In this document: piece after piece, positions 23-13,639 of the stretch
How positions within the stretch are numbered: position 1 is the first letter of the stretch
Layout of the letters: each line of letters starts with the position of its first letter
Source of the DNA: Cryobacterium roopkundense
GTDB lineage: Bacteria > Actinomycetota > Actinomycetes > Actinomycetales > Microbacteriaceae
Assembly: GCF_014200405.1 (NCBI RefSeq)
Contig: NZ_JACHBQ010000001.1
Location: 62,001-126,000 of the forward strand
DNA: 64,000 nt
Direction of reading: 5' to 3'
Notes under the pieces: generated by a model
What the model saw: the letters and a program-made list of their open reading frames with translations, nothing else
Database searches by the model: none
Told to the model about the DNA's origin: nothing
Program-made: the position numbers and the translations under genes

Positions 23-1252
23 ATGCCCGCCACTCTCGCCTACGCCTATAAGGGACGCAACGCCGCAGGAAAGGTCGTGAAGGGACGACTCGATGCCGCC
101 TCGGAGAGCGCCGCCATGACGCGCGTGCGCACGATGGGGCTCGCGCCGATCTCTGTTGACGAGGTGGCTGTCGGTACCGGGCTGAGTCGTGAGATCAGCA
201 TTCCGGGCTTCACGAAGCATCCGGGGCTCAAAGACCTTGCCGTGATGAGCCGTCAGATGGCCACCATGACCTCGGCCGGGCTCTCCCTGCTGCGTACCCT
301 CAACATCCTCTCGTCGCAGACAGAGAACAAGGAACTCGCCAAGATTCTCACGAGTGTGCGCAACGACGTGGAGACGGGCGTCTCCCTGTCCGAGGCCATG
401 GTGAAACACTCCAACGTGTTTCCGCCCATCATGATCAACCTCATCAAGGCCGGGGAGACGGGCGGTTTTCTCGAGAATTCGCTCAACTCGGTGGCCGGCA
501 ACTTCGAGTCGGAGGGAAAGCTGCGCGACACCATCAAGTCCGCCATGGCCTACCCCACCATCGTGCTCATCATGGCCGTGGTGGCGGTCATCGGCATGCT
601 CACCTTCATCGTGCCCGTCTTCGAGAAGATGTTCGCCGGCTTCGGCGGCCAGCTTCCCCTTCCCACCATGATCCTCGTCGTGCTCTCCAAGGTCATGGTG
701 TGGCTGCTGCCCGTGCTGGTCGTGCTGGGCATCGCCTTCTCGGTGTGGTGGCGCAAGAACAAGAACACCGAGGCCGTGCGCAAGATCATCGACCCGATCA
801 AGCTCAAGGTGCCCGTCTTCGGGCCGCTCATGACCAAGCTCGCGATCGCACGGTTCAGCCGAAACTTCTCCACCATGATCGGCGCCGGTGTGCCCATCCT
901 GCAGTCGCTCAACATCGTGGGGGAGACCTCCGGCAACTGGGTGGTGGAATCCGCGCTGCGCAAGGTGCAGGAGTCAGTGCGGCAGGGCATGTCCATCGCC
1001 GGGCCGCTGTCGCTCGAACCCGTGTTTCCGCCCATGGTCGTGCAGATGATCGCCGTCGGCGAAGACGCCGGAGCGCTGCAGACCATGCTCGGCAAGATCG
1101 CTGACTTCTACGACCAGGAGGTGCAATCCACGGCCGAACAGCTGACTGCCTTGATCGAGCCGCTCATGATCGCGTTCATCGGAGTCGTCATCGGCGGCAT
1201 GATCGTGGCGTTGTATATGCCCATGTTCTCGATCTTCGAGTACATCAAATAA
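23..1252 (+). CDS. pilC: Type IV pilus inner-membrane platform protein PilC
   Basis: This 409-residue protein has the GspF/PilC architecture: two related cytoplasmic T2SSF domains (about residues 75-198 and 278-400), each followed by hydrophobic helices near 178-200, 217-240 and 380-402. PilC is the membrane platform on which the PilB and PilT ATPases act to extrude and retract pilin. It is the only platform gene in the window, although two sets of pilins and alignment proteins follow. The ATPase genes are probably just upstream: bases 1-18 read as an open frame ending in SARKK and a stop, and AGAAAG before the ATG can act as ribosome binding site. Length and order are normal for an actinobacterial type IVa-like pilus locus. 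Confidence 0.93.
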   Translation: MPATLAYAYKGRNAAGKVVKGRLDAASESAAMTRVRTMGLAPISVDEVAVGTGLSREISIPGFTKHPGLKDLAVMSRQMATMTSAGLSLLRTLNILSSQTENKELAKILTSVRNDVETGVSLSEAMVKHSNVFPPIMINLIKAGETGGFLENSLNSVAGNFESEGKLRDTIKSAMAYPTIVLIMAVVAVIGMLTFIVPVFEKMFAGFGGQLPLPTMILVVLSKVMVWLLPVLVVLGIAFSVWWRKNKNTEAVRKIIDPIKLKVPVFGPLMTKLAIARFSRNFSTMIGAGVPILQSLNIVGETSGNWVVESALRKVQESVRQGMSIAGPLSLEPVFPPMVVQMIAVGEDAGALQTMLGKIADFYDQEVQSTAEQLTALIEPLMIAFIGVVIGGMIVALYMPMFSIFEYIK

Positions 1253-1311
1253 GAACATTCCCCAAACTGGGTCTTGAATAGTCAGGTTTTGTACATTTTG
1301 TGGTGATACAC

Positions 1312-1325
1312 CCCCTATGCTGGGG
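1312..1325 (+). promoter_or_regulatory. Candidate -10 region of first pilin promoter
   Basis: TATGCT (1316-1321) lies 52 nt before the first pilin ATG; an identical hexamer lies 52 nt before the second pilin ATG. Here it is flanked by CCCC and GGGG, forming a dyad over the -10 box. No convincing -35 box is visible. Confidence 0.4.
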
Positions 1326-1373: not shown

Positions 1374-1781
1374 ATGATCAGCAGACTGACCGCTCCGCTC
1401 GCCCGCAAGCGCGCCGCCCTGAACAAAGAAGACAAGGGGTTCACGCTCATCGAGCTGCTAGTGGTGGTCATCATCATTGGCATCCTCGCGGCCATCGCCA
1501 TCCCGATCTTCCTCAGCCAGCAGAACCAGGCCAAGGATGCGGGAGCCCAATCAGACCTAGGAAATGCCAAGGTCGCCTACGTAAGTTACTTGGTGGACTC
1601 CCCGTCGGGTACGAGTGTTGAGACGGCGGTCGCCCTCACCCCCTTCGGCTTTGCAGCCAGCTCCGGCGTTACCATCGCTGTCAAGACCGGAGGCACGGCA
1701 TTTTGCATCGACGGCCAGAGCACGACCCTCAAGAAGTTCAAGGTCACCAATTCCGGCGGAGTTGTTCCGGGCAACTGCTAG
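1374..1781 (+). CDS. Major type IV pilin, module 1
   Basis: This 135-residue prepilin has a charged 22-residue leader ending in Gly22, then mature FTLIEL with Glu at +5 and a long hydrophobic alpha-1 segment. PilD would cut after Gly22 and methylate Phe23. Two C-terminal cysteines (FCIDG and the final GNC) can form the usual pilin disulfide. The ATG at 1374 is chosen because AGAAGGAA lies just upstream and the leader then matches the second pilin at 6924; an upstream ATG at 1317 lacks such a site. The N-terminal half is almost identical to the second pilin, while the C-terminal half differs, as expected for an exposed surface. It is the first gene of module 1. Confidence 0.93.
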   Translation: MISRLTAPLARKRAALNKEDKGFTLIELLVVVIIIGILAAIAIPIFLSQQNQAKDAGAQSDLGNAKVAYVSYLVDSPSGTSVETAVALTPFGFAASSGVTIAVKTGGTAFCIDGQSTTLKKFKVTNSGGVVPGNC

Positions 1782-1827
1782 GTAGCCGGGCCGGTCGCGC
1801 TGCTGGGCCCGTAGTGGAATCTGTTTT

Positions 1828-1857
1828 GGTGGGGTGTCGCTCTGGCGACACTCCACC
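1828..1857 (+). terminator. Intercistronic hairpin after pilin 1
   Basis: GGTGGGGTGTCGC and GCGACACTCCACC pair around a TCTG loop (13 bp with one G-T). There is no long U-tract, so it may be a partial terminator or an mRNA 3' stabiliser that raises pilin above the minor pilins. A homologous hairpin follows the second pilin. Confidence 0.6.
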
Positions 1858-1905
1858 GCTGAGTCTCCGATACGATAACGACTGGATCCCGAGGAAGACT
1901 GACTC

Positions 1906-2331
1906 ATGAACGTTCTTCCTGAGAACGCAGCGCGACGTGCAGAAGTCGGGTTCGGCCTCATCGAGGTTGCCGTTTCAATGTTTCTGCTCGGTCTCCTCGC
2001 CGTGGCATTCCTGCCATTCCTGGTGCAGGGAATTCAACAGTCGTCGGCCAACGGAACGCTCGCTACCGCGACCCAGCTGGTGAACCGGGAGATCGAGAAC
2101 GCGCGCGCACAGGCGACCTGCACGAACCTGTCCACGAGCCTGAGCCCCGCACTGGTCCCCGTGGGCGAGGCAGAGGGAGTAGACCTTCACGTCACCCGCA
2201 CAGGTGGCACCTGTCCGGCGGCGGCAGCGGCATACCCGACAACTGTACTCGTGGAGGTAAAGGTGGAGCGTGCAGACACCGGGGCCGAGTTGGCTCGCGC
2301 CACAACCCTGATTTTCGTTGAGGCGAAATAG
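1906..2331 (+). CDS. Minor pilin, PilV/GspI-like, module 1
   Basis: This 141-residue protein has a class III prepilin signal: a 15-residue leader ending in Gly15, then FGLIEV with Glu at +5, and a hydrophobic helix to about residue 40. Two cysteines (ATC and GTC) may pair in the globular part. Size, motif and position between the major pilin and a PilW-like gene fit the PilV/GspI group of minor pilins that prime fibre assembly. The ATG follows GAGGAAG. The paralogue at 7449 has the same leader length and matches along most of its length. Assignment to PilV rather than another minor pilin rests on order and similarity of the N-terminus only. Confidence 0.82.
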   Translation: MNVLPENAARRAEVGFGLIEVAVSMFLLGLLAVAFLPFLVQGIQQSSANGTLATATQLVNREIENARAQATCTNLSTSLSPALVPVGEAEGVDLHVTRTGGTCPAAAAAYPTTVLVEVKVERADTGAELARATTLIFVEAK

Positions 2332-2333
2332 AC

Positions 2334-2900
2334 ATGCTCACCCGGCGTCACAAGGAATCTGAACACGGCTACACGCTCGTGGAACTCATCGTGTACAGCA
2401 GCCTGCTAATAGTCGTCGTGTCTGTCGTCGCGGGGTTATTCATCAGCGGCCTCACCACGACGAACCGTGTTCAGGCCATGACGGCTGCAACAACGTCGGG
2501 ACAAGTCGTGGTGGACTCCGTCGAAACGAACGTGCGCAACGCTAGCGGATTCCGCTTGACGACTCCATCGGGTTCGGATCAACTCCTGGTTGCCCGCACC
2601 GCGAAACGGGATGAAGCCCTGTCCTGGCAGTGCGTGGCCTGGTACTACTCGGCCGCCGGCAACGGCAGCATCCGTTTCAAACAGTCCCCGTGGGAAATTC
2701 TGACGCCGACGCCTGCAGAACTCCTCACCTGGACTCTGGTTCAGCGGGGAATCAAGCCCGTGCCGGGAACACCCATCTTTTCCTCAACTGGACAACAGGT
2801 GACCATGAAATTCAACAGCCTCGTCGGTGTGCACCCGCCTGTCATGATCTCAAGTTCTGCCACCAGTCGGGCCGGAGCACCGGGCAGCCCCATATGTTAG
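2334..2900 (+). CDS. Minor pilin, PilW/GspJ-like, module 1
   Basis: The 188-residue product has a 12-residue leader ending in Gly12, then YTLVEL with Glu at +5 and a hydrophobic helix. The body is larger than the PilV-like protein, as in PilW and GspJ. It starts 2 nt after the preceding stop and its own stop overlaps the next ATG, so the three minor pilins are probably translationally coupled. The paralogue at 7867 has the same leader length and matches closely. The likely role is in the minor-pilin priming or tip complex. Confidence 0.82.
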   Translation: MLTRRHKESEHGYTLVELIVYSSLLIVVVSVVAGLFISGLTTTNRVQAMTAATTSGQVVVDSVETNVRNASGFRLTTPSGSDQLLVARTAKRDEALSWQCVAWYYSAAGNGSIRFKQSPWEILTPTPAELLTWTLVQRGIKPVPGTPIFSSTGQQVTMKFNSLVGVHPPVMISSSATSRAGAPGSPIC

Positions 2901-4378
2901 CGCGCAGTATCGCCGCGCTGCGTTCACGCCCGGACCGCGGGGCCGCCCTCGCCTCCGTGCTCGGCCTGATGGTTCTGGGGCTGATCTTTGCCTCGCTGAT
3001 CACGGCATCCGTCGTGGGAGCCTACGGAGTAACTTCCGCAACCCGGTCGGGGGTGCAGTCCGGAGCCGCAGCTGATGCCGGCATTGCCGCCGTCCGCGCG
3101 TCGTTGTACCAAATCGAAGGATGCAAATCTCCGGAGGACACAGGTGCTTACTCTGCGGCGGGATCGCAGACATCGCCGAAGTACGACGCACAAGTCTGGT
3201 TCACATTAGGTGAGTTGAGCGCCGTCGGAAACGAGTGGTTTGAGGGGTGCCCGCTAGCCCTGGCGACCTACGTGAAAATCGTTTCGACGGGATACGCGCA
3301 ACAGACGGGAGTCAACGGTGCCGCTGTGGGCGATCAAACCACAATCGAAGCCGTCTTGAAGTACGGGAATGACGCGGCGGGAGTGGCTCTCTATCTCTAT
3401 AAGGGCGGCACCGTTGAGGCGAACTCTGAGTTCATCATGACGGGTTCCCCCGGTGCCGGGATCATGGTGAAAGACGGCGATTTCACGTGCGCCAAGAACA
3501 ATTCCGAGATCATCGGGAACGTCGTTGTTACGGGAAATTTGACACTAGCGTCCACTGGACAAGCCTGCTCCATCAAGGGGGACGTGTGGGTATCCCAACT
3601 GGCCACTCTTGGTCAGGGGAAGGTCGAGGGCAACCTGAGCTCGGGTGCTGTGAGCCCCACACTGACATCCGGCATGGTCGGTCCCAATCCGCCCGGAACG
3701 ACGGTGGGTGGCACTTACACGCAGCCCGCCGTTATGCCCGCCGTGCCGCCGTGGACTGAGATAGGCCCGCTGTTCACGCGCTGGAAGAACAAAAACGGTA
3801 CACCCTATGAGGTGAAGACGCAGTGCAACCTGACTGACCGCACACCGGGCGGTAGTACCTCCCTGGGCGGGACTGCCGTGGGCATGCCGGTCATCATCAA
3901 CGCATTGGGCTGCGTCTCGGGTCCAACCGTGTCCAGCAACACCACGGTCAGGCTCACGAGTGATGTCGTCATCTATGCGAACACATTTGATTTCTCGGCG
4001 GTGAACCAGCTGAATTTCTCGTCGTCGTCGACTGCGTCACACAGGATCTGGTTCATCACACCTGACCTCAACCCCAGCGATCTGAGACCGAGCTGCAACA
4101 GGGCTTTGCAGGGAGATTTCGCAGTGAAGGTTGGCTTTACCATCGCAGATCGCATCGAGGCTCTGCTCTACACGCCGTGCGCCTTCATTTCGACCAATAA
4201 TTTCAGCTGGCGCGGGCAAATCATTGCTGGAGAGCCGAGTGCTGTCAAGAACAACCCCGTCTTTGCCTTCGCGCCGGTGGGAATCCCGGGCGTAAACCTG
4301 ACAACGGGCAGCGCGACATCCGTTCTCCCGATTCCCCAGCCGGGCTCGGTCGTATCTAACCGCGAAGTTTCCTACTGA
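2894..4378 (+). CDS. Large PilX/GspK-like pilus protein with solenoid-like domain, module 1
   Basis: The 494-residue product starts at an ATG overlapping the preceding stop. Its N-terminus (RGAALASVLGLMVLG) resembles PilX/GspK, which also lack Glu at +5; cleavage after Gly16 is plausible. The ectodomain is very large for a minor pilin. Around residues 165-270 are short repeated strands such as NVVVTGNLTL and IKGDVWVS, resembling beta-solenoid or bactofilin-like polymer-forming repeats. A later segment contains VVIYANTFDFS and IWFITPDL, with several cysteines throughout. In GspK the fifth residue is absent because the protein caps the fibre, so I infer a tip-located protein, possibly an adhesin. 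Its paralogue is at 8427. Function beyond the pilus link is unknown. Confidence 0.75.
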   Translation: MLARSIAALRSRPDRGAALASVLGLMVLGLIFASLITASVVGAYGVTSATRSGVQSGAAADAGIAAVRASLYQIEGCKSPEDTGAYSAAGSQTSPKYDAQVWFTLGELSAVGNEWFEGCPLALATYVKIVSTGYAQQTGVNGAAVGDQTTIEAVLKYGNDAAGVALYLYKGGTVEANSEFIMTGSPGAGIMVKDGDFTCAKNNSEIIGNVVVTGNLTLASTGQACSIKGDVWVSQLATLGQGKVEGNLSSGAVSPTLTSGMVGPNPPGTTVGGTYTQPAVMPAVPPWTEIGPLFTRWKNKNGTPYEVKTQCNLTDRTPGGSTSLGGTAVGMPVIINALGCVSGPTVSSNTTVRLTSDVVIYANTFDFSAVNQLNFSSSSTASHRIWFITPDLNPSDLRPSCNRALQGDFAVKVGFTIADRIEALLYTPCAFISTNNFSWRGQIIAGEPSAVKNNPVFAFAPVGIPGVNLTTGSATSVLPIPQPGSVVSNREVSY

Positions 4379-4397
4379 TGACTACAGGAGTACAGCA

Positions 4398-5441
4398 ATG
4401 ACGGATAGCGTCGTCGGGATCGACATCGGCACGTCGGGTCTGCGCGGCGTGGAGGTGCGGGATGCCGGCAAGGCCCGTCCCACGGTAGTTCGCTATCACG
4501 AGATTCCGCTGCCGGAGGGAGCCGTCAATCGTGGAGAGGTGGCCGAACCCAACACGGTTGCGGCCGCGCTCAAAGCGCTCTGGTCGGCGGGCGGGTTCAA
4601 GAGCAAGAACGTGGTGCTCGGCGTCGGTAACCATCGCGCCCTCGCCCGGGACCTGGCCGTACCCAAGATGCCGATGAAACGCATCCGTGAAACCCTGCCT
4701 TTTCTCGTCGCCGACATGCTGCCCGTGCCCGTCGCGGAGGCACTGCTCGATTTCTATCCAATCAACGAGAGCGACGGGGAGAACGGGCCGGAGATCAACG
4801 GCTTGCTGGTCGTGGCCGTGAAAGAGGCCGTGCAGGGCAATATTGCCGCTGTGCAGTTGGCTGGCCTCACGGCCGTCGAGGTCGATCTCATTCCCTTCGC
4901 CGTGAGCCGGGCGGTGTGCCGCGGCACGAGTTTTGAGGGGGCGGTCGCCCTCATTGATGTGGGTCAGGCCACGACGAGCGTAGTGATTACCCTCGCTGGT
5001 GTTCCGCAGTTTGTGCGTCTCATCCCGGCCGGTGGGGGAGACCTCACCCAGGCGCTCATGCTGGGACTGTCCATCGACGCTCCCACGGCCGAGGCCCTGA
5101 AACTCGACAACGTTCTGACAGAACCCGCGATCGGCCAGACGGCCGAGGCTGCCATCATCATCGAGGCCACGGGCGACCTGCTCAACAGTCTGCGCAATAC
5201 GGTCAACTACTTTTCGAACACTCGGCAACATATCCCGGTGACCGGCATCGTGCTCTCGGGTGGCGGAGCCAAACTGACCGGCTTTGCTGAGGCGCTGGGT
5301 GCGCTCACTCGACTGCCCATTCTGACGGCCGATCCCTTCGCCTCGGTCGCCCCCGGTAAGGGCGTTGATGGTGCCGCCCTACGCGCCACAGACGGCGCAT
5401 TCACCGTGGCGCTCGGCCTCGCGCTGGGGAGTGTGGCATGA
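4398..5441 (+). CDS. pilM: Type IV pilus actin-like ATPase PilM, module 1
   Basis: This 347-residue protein begins VVGIDIGTSGLRGVEV, the phosphate-1 loop of the actin/FtsA fold. It also has LIDVGQATTSVVI (phosphate 2) and IVLSGGGAKLTGF (adenosine motif). PilM is cytoplasmic, binds the N-terminus of PilN and links the alignment subcomplex to the platform. AGGAG precedes the ATG, and the stop overlaps the pilN start (ATGA). The paralogue at 9874 has exactly the same length. The two proteins agree nearly throughout except around residues 230-255, while their codons differ at many third positions. Confidence 0.93.
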   Translation: MTDSVVGIDIGTSGLRGVEVRDAGKARPTVVRYHEIPLPEGAVNRGEVAEPNTVAAALKALWSAGGFKSKNVVLGVGNHRALARDLAVPKMPMKRIRETLPFLVADMLPVPVAEALLDFYPINESDGENGPEINGLLVVAVKEAVQGNIAAVQLAGLTAVEVDLIPFAVSRAVCRGTSFEGAVALIDVGQATTSVVITLAGVPQFVRLIPAGGGDLTQALMLGLSIDAPTAEALKLDNVLTEPAIGQTAEAAIIIEATGDLLNSLRNTVNYFSNTRQHIPVTGIVLSGGGAKLTGFAEALGALTRLPILTADPFASVAPGKGVDGAALRATDGAFTVALGLALGSVA

Positions 5442-6103
5442 GCACCAGGAACACACCAGACGTCCTCATGCTGGGTGCAGAACCCCGCATGGACCTGCTG
5501 CCGCCCGAGGTGCGTTCGGCTAAAAGAGTCAGGGCGACCAGACGACGTCTTGGCGGAGCACTGGTGGCTGTTCTGGTTCTTGTCGGGGCGGGGGTCGGCG
5601 CCTCTACCTGGTACGCCATTCAGGGTCAGGCTGAACTGACCGCCGCGCAGGATCTCACGACTGAGTTGCTCACGAGTCAGTCGAAGTATTCCGAGGTGCA
5701 GCGGGTGCAGGCGGCCCTGGACACGACGGTGGCCGCCCGGCAGTTTGGTGCGTCGACCGAGATCGACTGGAAGGCGTATATCGCCCAGGTGCGGGCGTTG
5801 GTGCCGAGCACGGTGACCGTGGACACCCTGTCGGTCGATTCCGCGTCGCCTTTGGTGCCGTACGAGCAGGCGACGACGCCGTTACTGAACCCCCGGGTGG
5901 CGACGATCAGAATTGTGTTCACGAGTCCGGATGCGACGAGTGTGCCGGAGTGGCTTGACAGCATGTCGACCTTGCCCGGTTACGCGGATTCCCGGCCGGC
6001 GGCTATCACCCGAACTGACCTCGGCACCTACACGGTGGATTTCGTGCTGCACGTGAATGAGGGCGCGTTCTCGGAGCGCTTCGCCACCCCGGAAGGACAG
6101 TAA
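5438..6103 (+). CDS. pilN: Type IV pilus alignment protein PilN, module 1
   Basis: The 221-residue product has a short cytoplasmic N-terminus containing LGAEPRMDLLPPEVR, equivalent to the conserved PilM-binding motif. One transmembrane helix follows (about residues 37-60), then a coiled-coil-prone stretch and a ferredoxin-like C-terminal domain. PilN pairs with PilO in the membrane. The start overlaps pilM by 4 nt. The paralogue at 10914 is also 221 residues and is closely similar. Confidence 0.9.
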   Translation: MSTRNTPDVLMLGAEPRMDLLPPEVRSAKRVRATRRRLGGALVAVLVLVGAGVGASTWYAIQGQAELTAAQDLTTELLTSQSKYSEVQRVQAALDTTVAARQFGASTEIDWKAYIAQVRALVPSTVTVDTLSVDSASPLVPYEQATTPLLNPRVATIRIVFTSPDATSVPEWLDSMSTLPGYADSRPAAITRTDLGTYTVDFVLHVNEGAFSERFATPEGQ

Positions 6104-6105
6104 TC

Positions 6106-6792
6106 GTGGACAAGAACAGGCTCTGGGTGATTGGCGCGGTGCTGGTTATCGGCGCGGTAGTGGTGCTCGGGTGGGGGCTGGGGATTTCGCCGAAGCTGAC
6201 CGAGCTGCGCGCGTATGAGGCGGAGCGGGACACCACGATGGCCCAGAATGCGGTGTATGAGGCACAGATCGTGGCCCTGAAGGCGCAGTTCGAAGACATA
6301 GACGCGCTCAGAGATGACCTCTCCGACGTTCAGCTGGCCGTGCCGGGCGCCGCAGAGATTCCGGGATTGGTTACGCAGCTCACTGCGATTGCGGCGACCA
6401 GTCAGGTGGTGGTATCGGCCTTCACCCCGAACGACGCGCAGGCCTACGACCCGGCACTTCTCGCCGTCACCGCGCCCGTGGAACCGTCCACAACAGTTCC
6501 CGCGCCGACCACGGGTGCCGGTGCGGTTGCGGTTGCGGATGCGGTTGCGGTTGCGGAGCCAACCGTGGACCCCCGCATTACCGCGACCAACTTCGTTGCC
6601 ATCCCGATCTCGATCACTGTTGACGGGCCGTACGACAATGTGCTGGACTTTGTGTCAGGCCTTCAGTACGGCCAACGGCTCGTCATGGTCACCGCCGTCT
6701 CCACAACGGTGCCCACTCCGGAGGGCACGGTATCCGGCACCATTACGGCACTGGTCTACGTGCTTCTGGATCCCGATGAGGTGGCCCCGTAA
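6106..6792 (+). CDS. pilO: Type IV pilus alignment protein PilO, module 1
   Basis: The 228-residue protein starts with GTG two bases after the pilN stop. It has one N-terminal transmembrane helix (about residues 5-25), a coiled-coil region (about 35-75), an Ala/Pro/Val-rich linker (about 125-155) and a C-terminal PilO fold ending LVYVLLDPD. It is expected to form a heterodimer with PilN. The linker is encoded partly by hexanucleotide repeats (6523-6558). The paralogue at 11582 is 241 residues, with most of the extra length in this linker. Confidence 0.9.
   Translation: MDKNRLWVIGAVLVIGAVVVLGWGLGISPKLTELRAYEAERDTTMAQNAVYEAQIVALKAQFEDIDALRDDLSDVQLAVPGAAEIPGLVTQLTAIAATSQVVVSAFTPNDAQAYDPALLAVTAPVEPSTTVPAPTTGAGAVAVADAVAVAEPTVDPRITATNFVAIPISITVDGPYDNVLDFVSGLQYGQRLVMVTAVSTTVPTPEGTVSGTITALVYVLLDPDEVAP
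6523..6558 (+). repeat. Hexanucleotide repeats in pilO linker
   Basis: Six consecutive 6-nt units, four GCGGTT plus GCGGAT and GCGGAG, encode alternating Val-Ala/Asp-Ala residues. Copy-number changes would stay in frame and alter the length of the PilO linker. Confidence 0.8.
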
Positions 6793-6808
6793 CCCCGAAA
6801 TGAAATTG

Positions 6809-6824
6809 CCCCCTGAACTGGGGG
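6809..6824 (+). other. Small inverted repeat between modules 1 and 2
   Basis: CCCCC and GGGGG are separated by 6 nt just after pilO of module 1. Related but shorter or longer C/G dyads follow pilC (1261-1271) and the second pilO (12354-12370), so the module boundaries share this feature. It may be a weak terminator. Confidence 0.4.
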
Positions 6825-6855
6825 TCGAAATTGGAACTTCTTAACTTAATTGTGT

Positions 6856-6887
6856 GCTAGCGACGTATGCTCAGATCAAGCTAGCGA
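6856..6887 (+). promoter_or_regulatory. Candidate promoter and flanking direct repeats of second pilin
   Basis: TATGCT (6866-6871) lies 52 nt before the second pilin ATG, as in module 1. It sits between two copies of GCTAGCGA (6856-6863 and 6880-6887), each containing the palindrome GCTAGC. These copies are absent from the module 1 promoter and could bind a regulator specific to module 2. Confidence 0.4.
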
Positions 6888-6923
6888 AGGCCCTCCTCGC
6901 AAGCACCCAGAGAAGGACCCATC

Positions 6924-7340
6924 ATGATCAAGAGCCTCACCGGACCGCTTGCCCGCAAGCGCGCGGCCCTGAACAAAGAAGACACAGGGTTCACCCTCAT
7001 CGAGCTCCTCGTTGTCGTCATCATCATCGGAATTCTGGCAGCAATCGCCATTCCGATCTTCCTCAGCCAGCAGAACCAGGCCAAGAATTCCGCCGCGCAA
7101 TCCGACCTCGGAAACGCCAAGGTCGCCTACGTGAGTTACCTCGTGGACACGCCGGCCGGCGCGAGCGTCGCCGTGGCGACGGCCCTCACGCCTTACGGTT
7201 TCGCAGCGACCACCGGAGTTACTGTCACCATTAAGACCGGCGGCACTTCCTTCTGCATCGACGCCGTGAGCTCCGCTCCCGCGCCAAATGCGTTCAGCAT
7301 CACTAACGCAGGTGGGGTCGTCAAGGCTGCTTGCCCGTAG
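6924..7340 (+). CDS. Major type IV pilin, module 2
   Basis: The 138-residue prepilin has the same leader layout as the first pilin (cleavage after Gly22, then FTLIEL). The first 75 or so residues are almost the same, while the C-terminal half differs, including VSSAPAPNAFSIT before the final cysteine. AGAAGGACC precedes the ATG. It opens module 2 and is followed by its own hairpin. Having two intact pilins, each with a private set of minor pilins and PilMNO, argues against simple pilin redundancy. Confidence 0.93.
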   Translation: MIKSLTGPLARKRAALNKEDTGFTLIELLVVVIIIGILAAIAIPIFLSQQNQAKNSAAQSDLGNAKVAYVSYLVDTPAGASVAVATALTPYGFAATTGVTVTIKTGGTSFCIDAVSSAPAPNAFSITNAGGVVKAACP

Positions 7341-7366
7341 GCCGTAGGCCGCAGGAAGTCATCGTC

Positions 7367-7394
7367 GTGGGGTGTCGCCGAGGCGGCACCCCAC
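7367..7394 (+). terminator. Intercistronic hairpin after pilin 2
   Basis: GTGGGGTGTCGCC pairs with GGCGGCACCCCAC through a tiny loop. The stem core GTGGGGTGTCGC resembles the hairpin after pilin 1, at the same relative place. Confidence 0.6.
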
Positions 7395-7448
7395 AGGTGA
7401 CTGCAACCGCAAAAAGCTCGCCTGAAGCGGCTCGAGAAAGTGGGTGCC

Positions 7449-7865
7449 ATGACCGTCTCACCTAGTTCGTCGGCCAGGCTGGCAGACGCAGGCTTCGGCC
7501 TCATTGAGATTGCCGTGTCCATGTTTCTGCTTGCCCTCCTCGCCGTGGCGTTCCTGCCATTCCTTGTGCAGGGGGTTAGGCAATCCTCCGCCAACGGAAC
7601 CCTGGCAACCGGTACCCAGCTTGTGAACAAGGAGATGGAGAACGCCCGTGCCCAGACCACGTGCACGGGCCTCACGGCGTCGACGTTCACGGTGCTTGAC
7701 CCGCGTGGCGTCACGCTTCAGGTGGCTCGCACTGTCGGCGGTGCCTGCCCCGCAGCTGCGCTGTCCTATCCGATCACTGTGCCCGTTGCTGTCACGGTGA
7801 CGCGCACCGATACCGGCGCCGTTCTGGCTTCGGCCAAGAGCCTGATTTTCGTGGCGGTGAAATGA
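7449..7865 (+). CDS. Minor pilin, PilV/GspI-like, module 2
   Basis: This 138-residue prepilin-like protein starts at the ATG at 7449, which gives cleavage after Gly15 before FGLIEI, the same spacing as its module 1 paralogue; an in-frame GTG 9 nt upstream is the alternative. The hydrophobic helix SMFLLALLAVAFLPFLVQG is nearly the same as in module 1. Two cysteines are conserved. It sits between the pilin hairpin and the PilW-like gene and probably acts in fibre priming or at the tip. Confidence 0.82.
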   Translation: MTVSPSSSARLADAGFGLIEIAVSMFLLALLAVAFLPFLVQGVRQSSANGTLATGTQLVNKEMENARAQTTCTGLTASTFTVLDPRGVTLQVARTVGGACPAAALSYPITVPVAVTVTRTDTGAVLASAKSLIFVAVK

Positions 7866-7866
7866 G

Positions 7867-8436
7867 ATGCCATTTCCTCAGCGCGACGATCCAGAACGGG
7901 GATACACGCTCGTTGAACTGATCGTGTACAGCGGCCTTCTTCTCCTCGTCGTGACAGTCGTCGCTTCTCTGTTCGTCAGCGGCCTCACTACGACCGAACG
8001 TGTGCGTGCAATGACGGCCGCGACCACGTCGGCCCAGGTAGTGGCAGATTCAATCGAGACCAACGTACGCAATTCCACAGACTTCCTGCTGACGAATCCG
8101 TCCGGCACCGACCAGTTCCTCGTCGCCCGCACGACGCGACGCGACGCGACGCTGTCCTGGCAGTGCGTGGCCTGGTACTACTCGGCGAGCGGCCAAGGAA
8201 GCATCCGCTTCAAGCAGTCCAGCGTGGCGATACTCGCACCCACGCCGACGGAACTTCAGGACTGGACCCTCGTGCAGCAAGGGATCACGCCTCTATCGGG
8301 AGCAGCGGTGTTTACGACCAGCGGCCAGAGTCTGACCGTGAACTTCAACAGTCTTGTCGGTGATCACCCGCCCGTCGTGATCTCCAGCTCCGCAACGAGT
8401 CGGGCCGGAGCATCGGGGAACCTGACATGTTTCTGA
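7867..8436 (+). CDS. Minor pilin, PilW/GspJ-like, module 2
   Basis: The 189-residue product has a 12-residue leader ending in Gly12, followed by YTLVEL. It begins 1 nt after the preceding stop and overlaps the next gene by 10 nt. It matches the module 1 copy closely, including the segment LSWQCVAWYYSA. The likely role is as a minor-pilin tip component. Confidence 0.82.
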   Translation: MPFPQRDDPERGYTLVELIVYSGLLLLVVTVVASLFVSGLTTTERVRAMTAATTSAQVVADSIETNVRNSTDFLLTNPSGTDQFLVARTTRRDATLSWQCVAWYYSASGQGSIRFKQSSVAILAPTPTELQDWTLVQQGITPLSGAAVFTTSGQSLTVNFNSLVGDHPPVVISSSATSRAGASGNLTCF

Positions 8437-9854
8437 TTGGCACACTTGCCTCCCTGCGCGACAAGCCGGAGCGCGGCGCCGCCCTGGCGTCTGTTCTCGG
8501 TGTCATGGCCGTTGGGCTGATCTTCGCATCGCTCATCACCGCATCGATCGTGGGAGCCTACGGAGTAAGTTCTGCCACACGCTCCGGTGTTCAATCGGGC
8601 GCGGCCGCGGACGCCGGGATTGCGGCGGCCCGCAGGGGCCTGTACGTTCTGGGGGATTGCGCTGCACAACCTACGCCAGGGACCTATTCTTCGGCGGTCC
8701 CGCCCAAGTACAGTGCAACGATCGAGTACTACACGGGGAGTGCTTGGTTTGCCGGATGTCCCGCGCTGACCGCCAGTCAGGTACGCATTACCTCGAACGG
8801 CACTGCTGAGGCCGCGGGAATTAACGGTGCCACCGTAGGCAACGCCACAAAGGTTGAAGCGGTGTTCAAATACATTATTCCCGGGGTACAACCGAGCGGA
8901 GTGGCCCTCTATCTCTACAAAGGTGGGGTAGTCGAGGCAAATTCCAGCTTCGACATGACGGAGTCACCCGGTGCGGGTCTCATGGTCAAGAGCGGCAACT
9001 TCGATTGTGCCAAGAACAACGCGGTGGTCAACGGCAGTGTGATCGTGAACGGCAATCTCACCTTCACGAGCACATGTACCGTGAACGGGAGCGCGTGGGT
9101 CTCGGGCACGGCAAGCCTCGGATCGGGCCTCATTAGGGACGATCTAACCGCTGGCGCAGTGAGTCCGAACCCCCCGGGCGCACGCGTGGGTGGAACTTAC
9201 ACGAACTCGGCGGTGATCCCCACGATCCCCACGTGGACCGAGCTGGGCTACAGCCCCACCTCATGGGTCGACTCCACCGGCACACCCTATGAGATCAAGA
9301 CTGTTCTCACACCGTCGGCTTGCGTGCTGCCCAATGGCAGCTTGGGGGGAACCGTGGCCGGCAAGCCCCTGATTTTGAATGCCCTCGGGTGTCTGGGCGG
9401 GCCCACGGCGGCGAACAACACGACAGTCAGCCTCACCAGCGACGTGGTGATTTACGCCAACAAGTTTGACTTCTCCGAGGTCAACTCGTTGCAGTTCTCG
9501 TCGTCGACGAGTGCGCTACACAAGATCTGGTTTATCACACCGGACCTTCTCGCAAATTCCCAGCCCACCTGCACAGCCCTCACACAAGGAGACTTCTCAG
9601 TCAAGAACGGGTTTGCGATCAATGACCCGATCGACGCTTTGCTTTACACGCCGTGTGCGTTCTCGGGGGCGAATGGATTCACCTGGAGCGGGCAGATCAT
9701 CGCCGGCAATTACAGCTCCGTGAAGAACAACCCCACGTTCACGTTTACTCAGATCGGCGTGCCCGGGGTGAACCTTGACACGGGCAGCGTGCTGTCAACC
9801 ATCGCCATTCCGCAGCCGGGCGCCGTCGTGTCGATTCGGGAGATCTCTGGCTGA
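8427..9854 (+). CDS. Large PilX/GspK-like pilus protein with solenoid-like domain, module 2
   Basis: The 475-residue paralogue of the protein at 2894 has the N-terminal RGAALASVLGVMAVG, with cleavage plausible after Gly17 and no Glu at +5. The central region again shows repeated strands (SVIVNGNLTF, VNGSAWVSG). The later segments VVIYANKFDFS and IWFITPDL and many cysteines are conserved. Divergence from the module 1 copy is concentrated in the first part of the ectodomain (about residues 60-130). I infer a pilus-tip protein with a binding surface that differs between modules; no known adhesin motif is visible. Confidence 0.75.
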   Translation: MFLIGTLASLRDKPERGAALASVLGVMAVGLIFASLITASIVGAYGVSSATRSGVQSGAAADAGIAAARRGLYVLGDCAAQPTPGTYSSAVPPKYSATIEYYTGSAWFAGCPALTASQVRITSNGTAEAAGINGATVGNATKVEAVFKYIIPGVQPSGVALYLYKGGVVEANSSFDMTESPGAGLMVKSGNFDCAKNNAVVNGSVIVNGNLTFTSTCTVNGSAWVSGTASLGSGLIRDDLTAGAVSPNPPGARVGGTYTNSAVIPTIPTWTELGYSPTSWVDSTGTPYEIKTVLTPSACVLPNGSLGGTVAGKPLILNALGCLGGPTAANNTTVSLTSDVVIYANKFDFSEVNSLQFSSSTSALHKIWFITPDLLANSQPTCTALTQGDFSVKNGFAINDPIDALLYTPCAFSGANGFTWSGQIIAGNYSSVKNNPTFTFTQIGVPGVNLDTGSVLSTIAIPQPGAVVSIREISG

Positions 9855-9873
9855 TGAACGAAAGATGGAGCAC

Positions 9874-10917
9874 ATGACGAAGGACGTTGTGGGAATCGAC
9901 ATCGGTACAACCGGGCTTCGCGCCGTCGAGGTGCGCGATGCCGGCAAGGCCCACCCGAAGCTGGTGCGTTACCACCAAGTGTCTCTTCCTGAGGGCGCGG
10001 TTAACCGTGGCGAGGTCGCCGAGCCCAATACTGTTGCCGCAGCGCTCAAGACACTGTGGTCGACCGGCGGGTTCAAGAGCAAGAATGTGGTGCTGGGGAT
10101 CGGAAACCATCGCGCGCTAGCCCGCGATCTCGCGGTTCCGAAGATGCCGATGAAGCGCATCCGTGAGACCTTGCCCTTTCTGGTCGCTGACATGCTCCCG
10201 GTCCCCGTCGCAGAGGCCTTGCTTGATTTTTACCCGATCAACGAGAGTGAGGGTGAGAACGGGCCGGAGATCAATGGCTTGCTGATCGTGGCTGTGAAGG
10301 AGGCTGTGCAGGGCAATATCGCCGCTGTGCAGCTGGCTGGCCTCACGGCCCTCGAGGTTGATCTGATCCCGTTCGCCGTGAGCCGGGCGGTGTGCCGCGG
10401 CACGAGTTTTGACGGGGCGGTCGCCCTTATCGATGTGGGGCAGGCCACCACGAGCGTCGTGATCACCCTCGCCGGCGTGCCGCAGTTCGTGCGACTGATC
10501 CCGGCCGGCGGAGGAGACCTCACGCAGGCGCTCGTGCTCGGCCTATCCGTCGATGCTCCCACTGCAGAGTCGGTAAAGCGCGAGCACGGGCTCGCCGGGG
10601 CATCCACCAGTCAGGCCCCCGAGACGTCCATTATCACCGAGGCGACGAGCGACCTGCTTAACAGCCTGCGCAACACCGTCAACTACTTCTCCAATACCAG
10701 GCCGCACATTCCGGTGACCGGAATAGTGCTTTCCGGCGGCGGCGCTCAGCTCGGCGGTTTCACGGCGGCACTCGGCGCGCTGACCCGGCTGCCCATTCTG
10801 CCAGCAGATCCGTTCGCCTCGGTTGCGCTCGGGCGCGGAGTTGATGCCGCCGCCCTCCATGCCACGAACGGTGCGTTCAACGTGGCCCTCGGCCTCGCAC
10901 TTGGGAGCGGAGCATGA
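9874..10917 (+). CDS. pilM: Type IV pilus actin-like ATPase PilM, module 2
   Basis: Starting at the ATG at 9874 gives 347 residues, equal to module 1; an in-frame ATG at 9865 would add MEH. GATGGAG lies upstream. The actin-fold motifs VVGIDIGTTGLR, LIDVGQATTSVVI and IVLSGGGAQLGGF are present. The segment about 230-255 (SVKREHGLAGASTSQ) differs from module 1, while the rest is close to identical. The pilN start overlaps the stop by 4 nt. Confidence 0.92.
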   Translation: MTKDVVGIDIGTTGLRAVEVRDAGKAHPKLVRYHQVSLPEGAVNRGEVAEPNTVAAALKTLWSTGGFKSKNVVLGIGNHRALARDLAVPKMPMKRIRETLPFLVADMLPVPVAEALLDFYPINESEGENGPEINGLLIVAVKEAVQGNIAAVQLAGLTALEVDLIPFAVSRAVCRGTSFDGAVALIDVGQATTSVVITLAGVPQFVRLIPAGGGDLTQALVLGLSVDAPTAESVKREHGLAGASTSQAPETSIITEATSDLLNSLRNTVNYFSNTRPHIPVTGIVLSGGGAQLGGFTAALGALTRLPILPADPFASVALGRGVDAAALHATNGAFNVALGLALGSGA

Positions 10918-11579
10918 CCGGCAAGAAGGCAACAACAGTCGATCTTGTTCTCGGCGCGGAACCCCGTATGGACCTGCTCCCGCCAGAGGTGCGCACACTC
11001 AAGAAAGTCAAGGCTACGAGGCGACGCCTCGGCGGTCTGCTGGTGGCAGTCTTGGTGCTCGTCGGGTCAGGAATCGGGGCCTCTACGTGGTACTCCATGC
11101 AGAGCCAGGCGGAACTTGACGCCGCGCGGGAGCGCACCACTGAGTTGCTCACGAGTCAGACGAAATATTCCGAGGTGCAGAGGGTGCAGGTGGCCTTGGA
11201 CACCACCCTGGCAGCGCGACAGTTCGGCGCATCCACTGAGATCGATTGGAAGGCGTACCTTGCCGAAGTGCGGGCTCTTGTTCCGAGCACCGTCACCGTT
11301 GACACCCTGTCCGTCGATTCGGCATCACCGCTTGTTCCGTATGAGCAGGCGACTGCACCTTTGCAGAATTCCCGGGTGGCCACTATCAGGATCCTGTTCA
11401 CCAGCCCCGATGTCACGAGTGTGCCGGAGTGGCTCGGCAGCATGTCGACGCTGCCCGGCTACGCGGATTCCCAGCCAGCCGTGATCACGAGAACTGCCGA
11501 GGGTCCCTACACTGTGGACTTCGTGCTGCACGTGAACGAGGGCGCGTTCTCGGGCCGCTTCGCCCCGGAGGGACAGTAA
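10914..11579 (+). CDS. pilN: Type IV pilus alignment protein PilN, module 2
   Basis: The 221-residue product has the conserved N-terminal LGAEPRMDLLPPEVR, one transmembrane helix (about 37-60) and a C-terminal domain ending HVNEGAFSGRF. Length and most residues equal the module 1 copy; differences cluster in the first 35 residues and in the helix-proximal coiled coil (residues 65-80). This is where partner specificity for a cognate PilM and PilO could lie. Confidence 0.9.
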   Translation: MTGKKATTVDLVLGAEPRMDLLPPEVRTLKKVKATRRRLGGLLVAVLVLVGSGIGASTWYSMQSQAELDAARERTTELLTSQTKYSEVQRVQVALDTTLAARQFGASTEIDWKAYLAEVRALVPSTVTVDTLSVDSASPLVPYEQATAPLQNSRVATIRILFTSPDVTSVPEWLGSMSTLPGYADSQPAVITRTAEGPYTVDFVLHVNEGAFSGRFAPEGQ

Positions 11580-11581
11580 TC

Positions 11582-12307
11582 GTGGACAAGAACAGGCTCT
11601 GGGTAATCGGTGCCGTGCTGGTGATCGGCGCGGTCGTGGTGCTCGGGTGGGTGCTCGGCATCTCGCCGAAGCTGAGCGAGGTGCGCGCCCATTCTGCGGA
11701 GCGGGAAACCACACTGGCTCAGAATGCCGCATACGAGGCACAAATCGTGTCGCTGAAGAAGCAGTTCGAAGACATCGACTCGCTCAAAGCGGATCTGTCC
11801 GACATTGTGCAGGCTGTGCCCGCTTCCGCCCAGATGCCCGCACTTCTTGGCGAGCTCAACCAGGTTGCCGCGAGCAGCCAGGTGGTGATTTCGGCGTTTA
11901 CGGCGAACGATGCGCAGGCCTACGACCCGGCGCTGCTGGCCGTCGTTGACACCGCAGTCGTGGCGCCGGAGGCCACGCCCACACCGGCGCCCAGCGCTGC
12001 GACCGACGCCGATGCGGTCGCTGCGAACGCTGTCACCGCCGGCGTGGCCGGGGTGGGTTCGGTCGGGGGAGTCGACCCCCGCATCACTCCCTCCAACTTC
12101 ATCGCCATCCCGATTTCGATCACCGTCGACGCTCCATACGACAACGTGCTGGATTTCGTCTCGGGCGTTCAGAGTCGACAACGGTTGGTGCTGGTCACCG
12201 CGGTGTCCACGACCGTTCCCACGGTGGAGGGTTCGGTGACTGGAACCATCACGGCCTTTGTCTACGTTCTTCTTGACTCGAACGCGGAGGCCGCGGAGGT
12301 TCAATGA
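11582..12307 (+). CDS. pilO: Type IV pilus alignment protein PilO, module 2
   Basis: The 241-residue product starts with GTG two bases after pilN, as in module 1. It has an N-terminal transmembrane helix, a coiled coil, an Ala/Thr/Val/Gly-rich linker (about residues 125-165) and a C-terminal PilO fold. The linker is longer than in module 1 and lacks the regular hexamer repeat. It closes module 2. Confidence 0.9.
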   Translation: MDKNRLWVIGAVLVIGAVVVLGWVLGISPKLSEVRAHSAERETTLAQNAAYEAQIVSLKKQFEDIDSLKADLSDIVQAVPASAQMPALLGELNQVAASSQVVISAFTANDAQAYDPALLAVVDTAVVAPEATPTPAPSAATDADAVAANAVTAGVAGVGSVGGVDPRITPSNFIAIPISITVDAPYDNVLDFVSGVQSRQRLVLVTAVSTTVPTVEGSVTGTITAFVYVLLDSNAEAAEVQ

Positions 12308-12784: not shown

Positions 12785-13639
12785 GTGAGCGTGTCCGAAC
12801 TGAGCAGCGTGATGGTGGGCGTTGTCGTCACGCTTGCGGTGGTCTACGGCCTCATGATCGGTTCCTTCCTCAACGTCGTGATCTACCGGGTGCCGCTGGG
12901 CAAGTCGGTGGTGTCTCCGCCGAGCGCGTGCCCGCAGTGCGGCGTGGCTATCCGTCGGCGGGACAACGTGCCGGTGCTGTCCTGGCTTCTGCTCCGTGGG
13001 CGCTGCCACAATTGTGGGGCTCCCGTTTCTCCGCGCTACCTGTTCGTGGAGTTGGGCACCGCGATCTTCTTCGGCGTGGTGGCCTGGTGGGTGGTCGGGA
13101 GGCAGCCCGTCCCTTCCGATGGCACCGGCCTGCTTCTGCTGATCATCACTCTATTGGCGTTCCTGTACCTGGCAGCCATCAGTATCGCCCTGGCCCTCAT
13201 CGACATCGATACGCATCGGCTCCCCAATCGGATCCTGCTGCCGGCGTACTGGGTGGCCGTCGTACTGCTGACCGCCGCTGCGCTGCTCGGTGGCGAACCC
13301 GAGCGCCTCCTCGGCGCCGCCGTGGGTGGTGCGGGGCTCTTCGGCCTTTACCTCGCGCTCGCCCTGATCCGGCCCGGCGGCATGGGTTTCGGAGACGTCA
13401 AGCTTGCGGGCGTACTGGGGCTCTACCTGGGCTGGCTCGGCTGGGGCCAACTCGCCGTGGGCGCCTTCGGCGCTTTCCTCCTCGGCGGTCTGTTCGGCGT
13501 CGCCCTGCTGTTGGCCAAGCGAGCCGGACGCAAGAGCAGCATCCCCTTCGGGCCCTGGATGCTCGCGGGTGCCTGGCTCGGAATCCTCTTCGGCGTGCCG
13601 CTCGCAGCCGGGTATCTGTCACTCTACGGTTTGGCGTGA
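12785..13639 (+). CDS. pilD: Type IV prepilin peptidase / N-methyltransferase PilD
   Basis: The 284-residue polytopic membrane protein starts with GTG after GAAGGCGGGG. It has the N-terminal [10 protein letters not shown] motif, two zinc-binding CxxC pairs (49-52 and 74-77), and both catalytic aspartate motifs ([11 protein letters not shown] and [11 protein letters not shown]). PilD removes the prepilin leaders and methylates the new N-terminus. As the only such enzyme in the window, it probably processes all eight prepilin-like proteins here. Confidence 0.94.

Follow-up and report, generated by a model that had tools for sequence, protein, structure and literature searches.

The window, that is, the whole stretch of DNA analysed here, comprises 64,000 nucleotides of the genome of Cryobacterium roopkundense (assembly GCF_014200405.1, contig NZ_JACHBQ010000001.1, positions 62,001 to 126,000). 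It carries a type IV pilus locus in which two head-to-tail modules of seven genes (pilin, pilV-, pilW- and pilX-like, pilM, pilN and pilO) lie on the + strand at positions 1374-6792 and 6924-12307, accompanied by one pilC and one pilD gene. The explanation that appears to suit this arrangement best, to which an even chance is assigned, is that the modules would represent two dedicated cartridges, each consisting of a fibre and its alignment complex, on one motor. The specificity half of the machine (major pilin, V-W-X and PilM-PilN-PilO) would have been duplicated as one unit, and the power half (PilB, PilT, PilC and PilD) would have been kept single. The pilins of both modules would be processed by one PilD, after which each module's own PilMNO would dock and assembly by one PilB-PilC motor would follow, the outcome being two pili differing in surface and tip. 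A more tentative extension, given a little less than an even chance, is that PilMNO links a particular set of pilin and tip proteins to the common motor, that the cartridges are exchangeable, and that the whole cartridge was doubled twice independently in Cryobacterium.

Organization of the locus

Review of the open reading frames and Pfam matches bore out an earlier note on this DNA, which had described two complete tandem modules with a repeated gene order and 14 intact frames; all 14 lie on the + strand. Pfam recognized the prepilin N-terminus in both PilA proteins, PilM_2 in both PilM, PilO in both PilO and T2SSF in PilC, the PilM and PilO matches exceeding the curated cut-offs. Both major pilins carry a class III signal peptide with Glu5 (GFTLIE), with N_methyl over the cut-off. 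PilV, PilW, PilX and PilN were named mainly from place and N-terminal features, and neither Pfam nor NCBIfam gave a confident model match for the X or N proteins of the window. Compared with solved structures, the PilM profile matched PilM at 2e-41, and PilN gave only a weak match to PilN (3jc8, E 0.18). The X protein lacks Glu5 and weakly resembles bactofilin (E 0.029); tip proteins of the GspK type likewise lack Glu5. The starts adopted were 2894 for X1, 9874 for pilM2 and the GTG at 11582 for pilO2, which is the counterpart of the GTG at 6106 in pilO1. The gene junctions are alike in both modules, with a 4-base overlap of pilM and pilN and a 2-base gap between pilN and pilO.

Upstream of the window, the cluster starts with a PAS-GGDEF-EAL gene, pilB (whose product has an MshEN domain) and pilT, the first of these immediately preceding pilB (L018:956-3880, genome C1). 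The features that define a type IVa system were found together, namely PilB and PilT ATPases, a two-half PilC, an A24 peptidase with its N-terminal domain, PilMNO and a Glu5 pilin, and the locus is, judged from these genes, a type IVa pilus (Tfpa) system of the monoderm type.

One set of motor genes of this kind

Across the whole genome, PilM is matched twice, both times in these modules with no third match, and there is one A24 prepilin peptidase. T2SSF matches comprise the PilC of this locus, with the remainder located within three Tad-type-like loci; T2SSE matches comprise PilB (466 bits) and PilT (164.5 bits) of this cluster, three strong ones in Tad-type-like loci and a weak one elsewhere. 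PilT was named from gene order and similarity, not from a PilT model. Neither PilB nor PilT of this type, encoded immediately upstream of the window, has a second copy in the genome. The Tad-type-like loci read as CpaE-CpaF-TadB-TadC (L138), as TadA with TadB/C pieces (L139), and as TadA, a two-half TadB/C-like protein of 350 amino acids and TadE-like proteins (L140), these names being readings of the sequence and not matches to Tad models.

The whole-genome search found no second pilC/pilD locus serving one module, an arrangement that the earlier note had raised, and its claim of one PilC and one PilD common to both modules agrees with the genome's gene content, where the other T2SSF proteins are Tad-type-like and A24 occurs once. 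As far as gene content tells, pilB, pilT, pilC and pilD would be common to both modules. The note had further proposed two distinct fibres on this shared platform; the sharing stands by gene content, and the fibres themselves may be distinct. The shared motor is probably under the control of cyclic di-GMP (c-di-GMP), because a PAS-GGDEF-EAL gene precedes pilB and PilB has an MshEN domain, and the motor would in this way be set for both pili. Elsewhere in the genome, one ComEC-family match adjoins one helix-hairpin-helix (ComEA-type) match, and a DNA-uptake role for one of the pili is therefore possible.

Divergence between the two copies

The amino-acid identities between copies 1 and 2 are far above chance level, at 76% for PilA, 69% for V, 68% for W, 62% for X, 86% for PilM, 82% for PilN and 71% for PilO. 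For the seven gene pairs, synonymous divergence (dS, by NG86) ranges from 0.85 to 1.9 and the ratio of nonsynonymous to synonymous divergence (dN/dS) from 0.07 to 0.22, with third positions 40-59% identical. Since the 14 frames are open despite that much silent change, the duplication is, on this measure, old and both copies are held by selection. An assembly artefact or a recent duplication was ruled out by the dS values and by the protein identity of 62-86%, and recent gene conversion was rejected because near-identical third positions nowhere form a long tract. Codons 121-200 of pilM are more alike between the copies (77 and 70%) and might reflect an old gene conversion.

Conservation between the copies is high in the PilA helix (30/30), the PilO N-terminus (28/29) and PilM residues 61-120 (58/60), and low in the globular part of PilA (34/60) and in X (235/397); the PilN ectodomain is 86% alike, its cytoplasmic tail 69% (27/39), and the PilO coil agrees at 49/77 residues. 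In these comparisons, packing or machine-facing parts are conserved and exposed parts less so, a pattern that fits two cartridges on one motor and is also compatible with a mixed fibre. Residues private to one module were counted with module 1 of a second doubled Cryobacterium species, labelled G046, as outgroup (sums and chi-square computed by hand). For A+V+W+X, 144 are private to module 1 vs 49 to module 2 (chi-square 46.8), and for M+N+O, 39 vs 29 (chi-square 1.5). X accounts for the most private residues among module 1 genes, with 89 vs 20 in module 2. By these counts, change is concentrated in the fibre, above all in the tip-like X, rather than in the alignment complex.

A redundant duplication, retained for dosage or by chance and without division of labour, would be compatible with the same gene order and the many residues conserved in both copies; it is nevertheless highly improbable, because every frame is intact at a dS near or above 1 and private changes are three times as frequent in the module 1 pilins but near-even in PilMNO, neither of which fits pure dosage.

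In their mature form, the two major pilins are identical over residues 1-30 (30/30). This makes a mixed fibre possible and lends some weight to another explanation, namely one mixed pilus, whose fibres would contain both major pilins and both tip sets and whose single machine would include hetero-oligomers of the PilM, PilN and PilO paralogues. The 86% identity of the PilM copies is in its favour, as is the case of Streptococcus sanguinis, for which hetero-polymers are argued from two pilins that share the same N-terminus and are present at similar levels (PMC4832360). Such a pilus would need only two pilins, leaving unexplained why V, W, X, M, N and O are doubled as well, and the probable repetition of the full doubling together with the promoter-like element retained by each pilA also makes it unlikely, at about one chance in four.

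Expression signals

A TANGCT box is found at -58 to -61 in 8/8 upstream regions of pilA in the clade, irrespective of whether the preceding sequence is pilC, pilO or other DNA, and at -45 to -75 in 15/46 pilA upstream regions of the genus (the eight included) vs 1.2 in mononucleotide shuffles. The pattern CCC-N4-9-GGG occurs in 33/46 of the same regions vs 6.9 in mononucleotide shuffles. Between pilA and pilV, the hairpins of 10 junctions were each compared with 300 mononucleotide shuffles, and eight were unmatched, both modules of the window among them, the observed stem being reached by 1/300 shuffles in G056 and by 9/300 in module 2 of G046. Two-sided changes affect 8/14 stem pairs in seven hairpins of the window and its relatives, picked by eye, and a stem score of at least 11 is attained at 14/24 pilA-pilV junctions of the genus. 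Each module may be its own transcription unit.

Separate promoter-like elements would also serve a switch, in which the two modules are never expressed together (the choice depending on surface, temperature or growth phase) and the shared motor is refitted, and the proportions of wide and narrow pili in Thermus thermophilus do differ between plates and liquid (PMC7203116, in excerpt). The same box and inverted element in both upstream regions point to like, not opposite, regulation, and a switch is considered improbable. The signals and genes of the locus are collected in Table 1.

Table 1. Genes and candidate expression signals of the doubled pilus locus (positions in the window)
Feature	Positions	Strand	Basis
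pilC, platform protein	23..1252	+	T2SSF 206.7 bits, two stretches; sole PilC of this kind found
C-rich/G-rich inverted element upstream of pilA1	1260..1271		CCC-N4-9-GGG pattern
TATGCT promoter-like box, 58 bases before pilA1	1316..1321	+	TANGCT conservation
pilA1, module 1 major pilin	1374..1781	+	N_methyl, E 1.1e-9
Hairpin between pilA1 and pilV1	1827..1858	+	0/300 shuffles as good; two-sided changes among relatives
pilV1-like minor pilin	1906..2331	+	Prepilin-like G-FGLIE; 69% to copy 2
pilW1-like minor pilin	2334..2900	+	Prepilin-like G-YTLVE; 68% to copy 2; N_methyl at E 0.012, under the cut-off
pilX1, large tip-like pilin without Glu5	2894..4378	+	62% to copy 2
pilM1	4398..5441	+	PilM_2 127.5 bits
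pilN1	5438..6103	+	Gene order (pilM-pilN-pilO); DLLPPE tail conserved; weak match to PilN (E 0.18)
pilO1	6106..6792	+	PilO 41.4 bits
C-rich/G-rich inverted element upstream of pilA2	6809..6824		Same element as before pilA1
TATGCT promoter-like box, 58 bases before pilA2	6866..6871	+	TANGCT conservation
pilA2, module 2 major pilin	6924..7340	+	N_methyl, E 1.6e-8
Hairpin between pilA2 and pilV2	7367..7394	+	0/300 shuffles as good; two-sided changes among relatives
pilV2-like minor pilin	7440..7865	+	Copy comparison; N_methyl just under cut-off
pilW2-like minor pilin	7867..8436	+	Copy comparison with module 1
pilX2, large tip-like pilin without Glu5	8427..9854	+	Copy comparison with module 1
pilM2	9874..10917	+	PilM_2 130.2 bits
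pilN2	10914..11579	+	82% to copy 1
pilO2	11582..12307	+	PilO 45 bits
pilD, prepilin peptidase	12785..13639	+	Both A24 domains (Pfam); sole A24 peptidase found in genome

Distribution and history in Cryobacterium

A PilM match is present in 50/57 genomes of the genus, that of the window (G000) counted, and at least one PilM locus was read in 36 of the 50 (31 + 5). The full double module on one pilB-pilT-pilC set was found in two genomes, the window's own and G046, in which the order, with genes given by their last letters, is A-V-W-X-M-N-O, B-T-C, A-V-W-X-M-N-O, D; the G046 genome, in two contigs, has one strong two-half PilC, one A24 peptidase and three further, weaker T2SSF matches. Partial doubling on one B-T-C set, with W-X-M-N-O followed by A-V-W-X-D-M-N-O, occurs in G012 (C. 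frigoriphilum) and G022 (C. melibiosiphilum), and most other loci read have one PilMNO per B-T-C. In the other 14 genomes and the unread PilM places of G006, G012, G015, G020, G028, G033, G036 and G050, no two full PilM lie 11 kb or less apart; in G020 and G050 a second PilM lies about 12 kb away, with its own B, T and C in between. The locus of MLB-32 (G032) is cut at a contig end and may be doubled.

Other species with a nearby second M-N-O set have separate T and C, the second B often being undetected. At L101, L104, L133, L136 and L146-L150, the second cluster comprises separate T, C, A and M-N(-O) genes, but tblastn detected no B, which suggests that second Cryobacterium pilus clusters of this kind borrow the PilB of their neighbour. 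In C90 of G022 (L021-L023), three B-T-C sets and four PilM stand in a row over 44 kb, with one A24 in the genome. In Y11 (G034), the locus closest to that of the window (L029) is without pilD and has unlike flanks, and the sole A24 peptidase found sits in its other pilus cluster. The G023 locus (L038) has the motor and PilMNO of the clade, with very different V, W and X, at only 30-57% to the rest of the clade, and with W and X most similar to those of G029, which suggests an exchange of pilin sets between species.

The flanks downstream of pilD are syntenic in the window, G046, G023 and G032, and the upstream GGDEF-EAL gene is common to the window and G023. In the MNO tree, Y11 and MLB-32 fall together with both modules of G000 (100/99), and G023 with those of G046 (100/99), and in the seven-gene tree the two modules of each genome are sisters (98/98 for G000, 100/100 for G046). 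One-to-one orthology of the copies, a check proposed in the earlier note, does not hold for G046, and the doublings look independent. All four pairings for MNO were rejected by the approximately unbiased (AU) test (log-likelihood 124-134 worse, p <=0.00064), and the two pairings tested for AVWX were rejected as well, at 88.5 worse. Because the trees reject this orthology, the doubling probably arose twice in the genus, barring concerted evolution that masks an older one.

A grouping of module 2 with Y11 had been suggested by a first count of shared derived residues, distorted by the long module 1 branch. A fair count gives 13 for module 2 with Y11, 15 for module 1 with module 2 and 9 for module 1 with Y11 in the pilins, and 4, 9 and 3, respectively, in MNO; like the seven-gene tree, it joins the two modules. 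The branch of module 1 is 0.33 long vs 0.12 for module 2, and 0.59 vs 0.13 in the pilins; module 2 would be closer to the ancestral fibre, and module 1 would have taken on a new one.

Distribution beyond the genus

The named loci surveyed numbered 79, from the best 80 of 193, with parts located by tblastn; among these, the commonest order is B-T-C-A-V-W-X-D-M-N-O. The family, order and phylum samples partly overlap, contain one genome per species and were judged by PilM positions; in one genus of the family (g85) the scores for PilM are weak, so that some may have been missed. PilM is present in 145/299 genomes of the family, among them that of the window and five more from Cryobacterium. Seven family genomes outside the genus have two matches, which are on different contigs in four, and the other three have at least one PilM place outside the matches listed. 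In the order, 130/396 genomes have PilM, and six outside the genus have two matches, close together only in G695, which contains two A-V-W-X-D-M-N sets, each then followed by T and C, with one reversed B between them and O detected in the first. The claim that doubling PilMNO together with the pilins is unusual is in keeping with its rarity in the family and order samples.

In the phylum sample, 240/396 genomes have PilM, many with more than one match among the matches listed. One close PilM pair among these was followed, that of G980, from a distant actinobacterial family, in which M-N-O and the next reading frame are doubled in tandem beside one C (L141:5927-13693). Because G980 has it, M-N-O doubling on one C is, as the gene order reads, not unique; within the samples surveyed, the full cartridge doubled on one B-T-C set was found in Cryobacterium only.

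Weighing the two-cartridge explanation

Several points tell against two dedicated cartridges and the history proposed for them. With seven genes, the rejection of module 2 grouped with Y11 is weak (AU p 0.03); neither AVWX alone (p 0.097) nor MNO alone rejects this grouping, which with MNO is the better-supported, unstarred fork (72/91). Concerted evolution could mimic two independent doublings. The TANGCT box was first noticed in the same eight regions that were counted, and outside them it occurs in 7/38. A sigma-70 consensus scan gave 2 promoter-like sites vs 1.9 in shuffles, and as this is not above chance, the promoter case is one of conservation. The PilN tail and PilO coil differ between the copies, yet specificity is tied to no residue so far, and the two sets could mix, given a pilin helix that is the same in both copies and PilM at 86% identity. 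Finally, a second PilMNO is not needed for a second fibre, because Thermus makes two with a single PilMNO.

Comparison with known systems

A literature search by title and start of abstract, with subscription journals mostly outside its scope, returned no type IV pili of Cryobacterium and no doubled pilMNO modules. The locus pairs one motor with two sets of pilins and two diverged copies of PilMNO, and the genus contains a second, apparently independent case; in such a natural system, single-gene removals or swaps could show whether the alignment complex selects the pilin that enters the motor, placing specificity in PilN/PilO, the minor pilins or the major pilin. Its apparent recurrence in one genus, and the conserved motor set against a duplicated, diverging cartridge, add to its interest.

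The cited papers are represented here by excerpts. According to a 2019 review, PilM, PilN and PilO act in pilus assembly in monoderms, and the actinobacterial pili studied up to then were of the Tad type (PMC6916266). The commonest Cryobacterium/Microbacteriaceae locus has the same genes in the same order within its parts; it carries one module per B-T-C, with pilD between X and M, whereas pilD here follows the last module. Like the window, G980 has two tandem M-N-O(-orf) sets beside one C; unlike it, the 20-kb stretch of G980 doubles the alignment complex and next reading frame only, with no second V, W or X, and has two pilins side by side before both M-N-O sets. The extra pilA/minor-pilin clusters of Myxococcales similarly show duplication of pilins alongside a single set of machine genes, but there pilA alone is in tandem, and duplicated pilMNO is not mentioned in the excerpt (PMC6060248).

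S. sanguinis resembles the present system as a Gram-positive type IVa case with two major pilins, PilE1 and PilE2, that have identical N-termini and share one motor; the authors consider it likely that both enter the same fibre, and the excerpt names PilM, PilN, PilD, PilF, PilG and PilT once each and describes no doubled PilMNO/minor-pilin set (PMC4832360). T. thermophilus produces two structurally distinct pili, a wide one (PilA4) and a narrow one (PilA5), with one machine (PMC7203116, PMC13039148), has a single PilMNO, and requires PilA4 for both pili (PMC7203116). It differs from the Cryobacterium system in having a secretin in the outer membrane. The two are alike in combining two major pilins with one motor, here as read from gene content, and unlike in that PilMNO and V-W-X are doubled along with the pilin in Cryobacterium.

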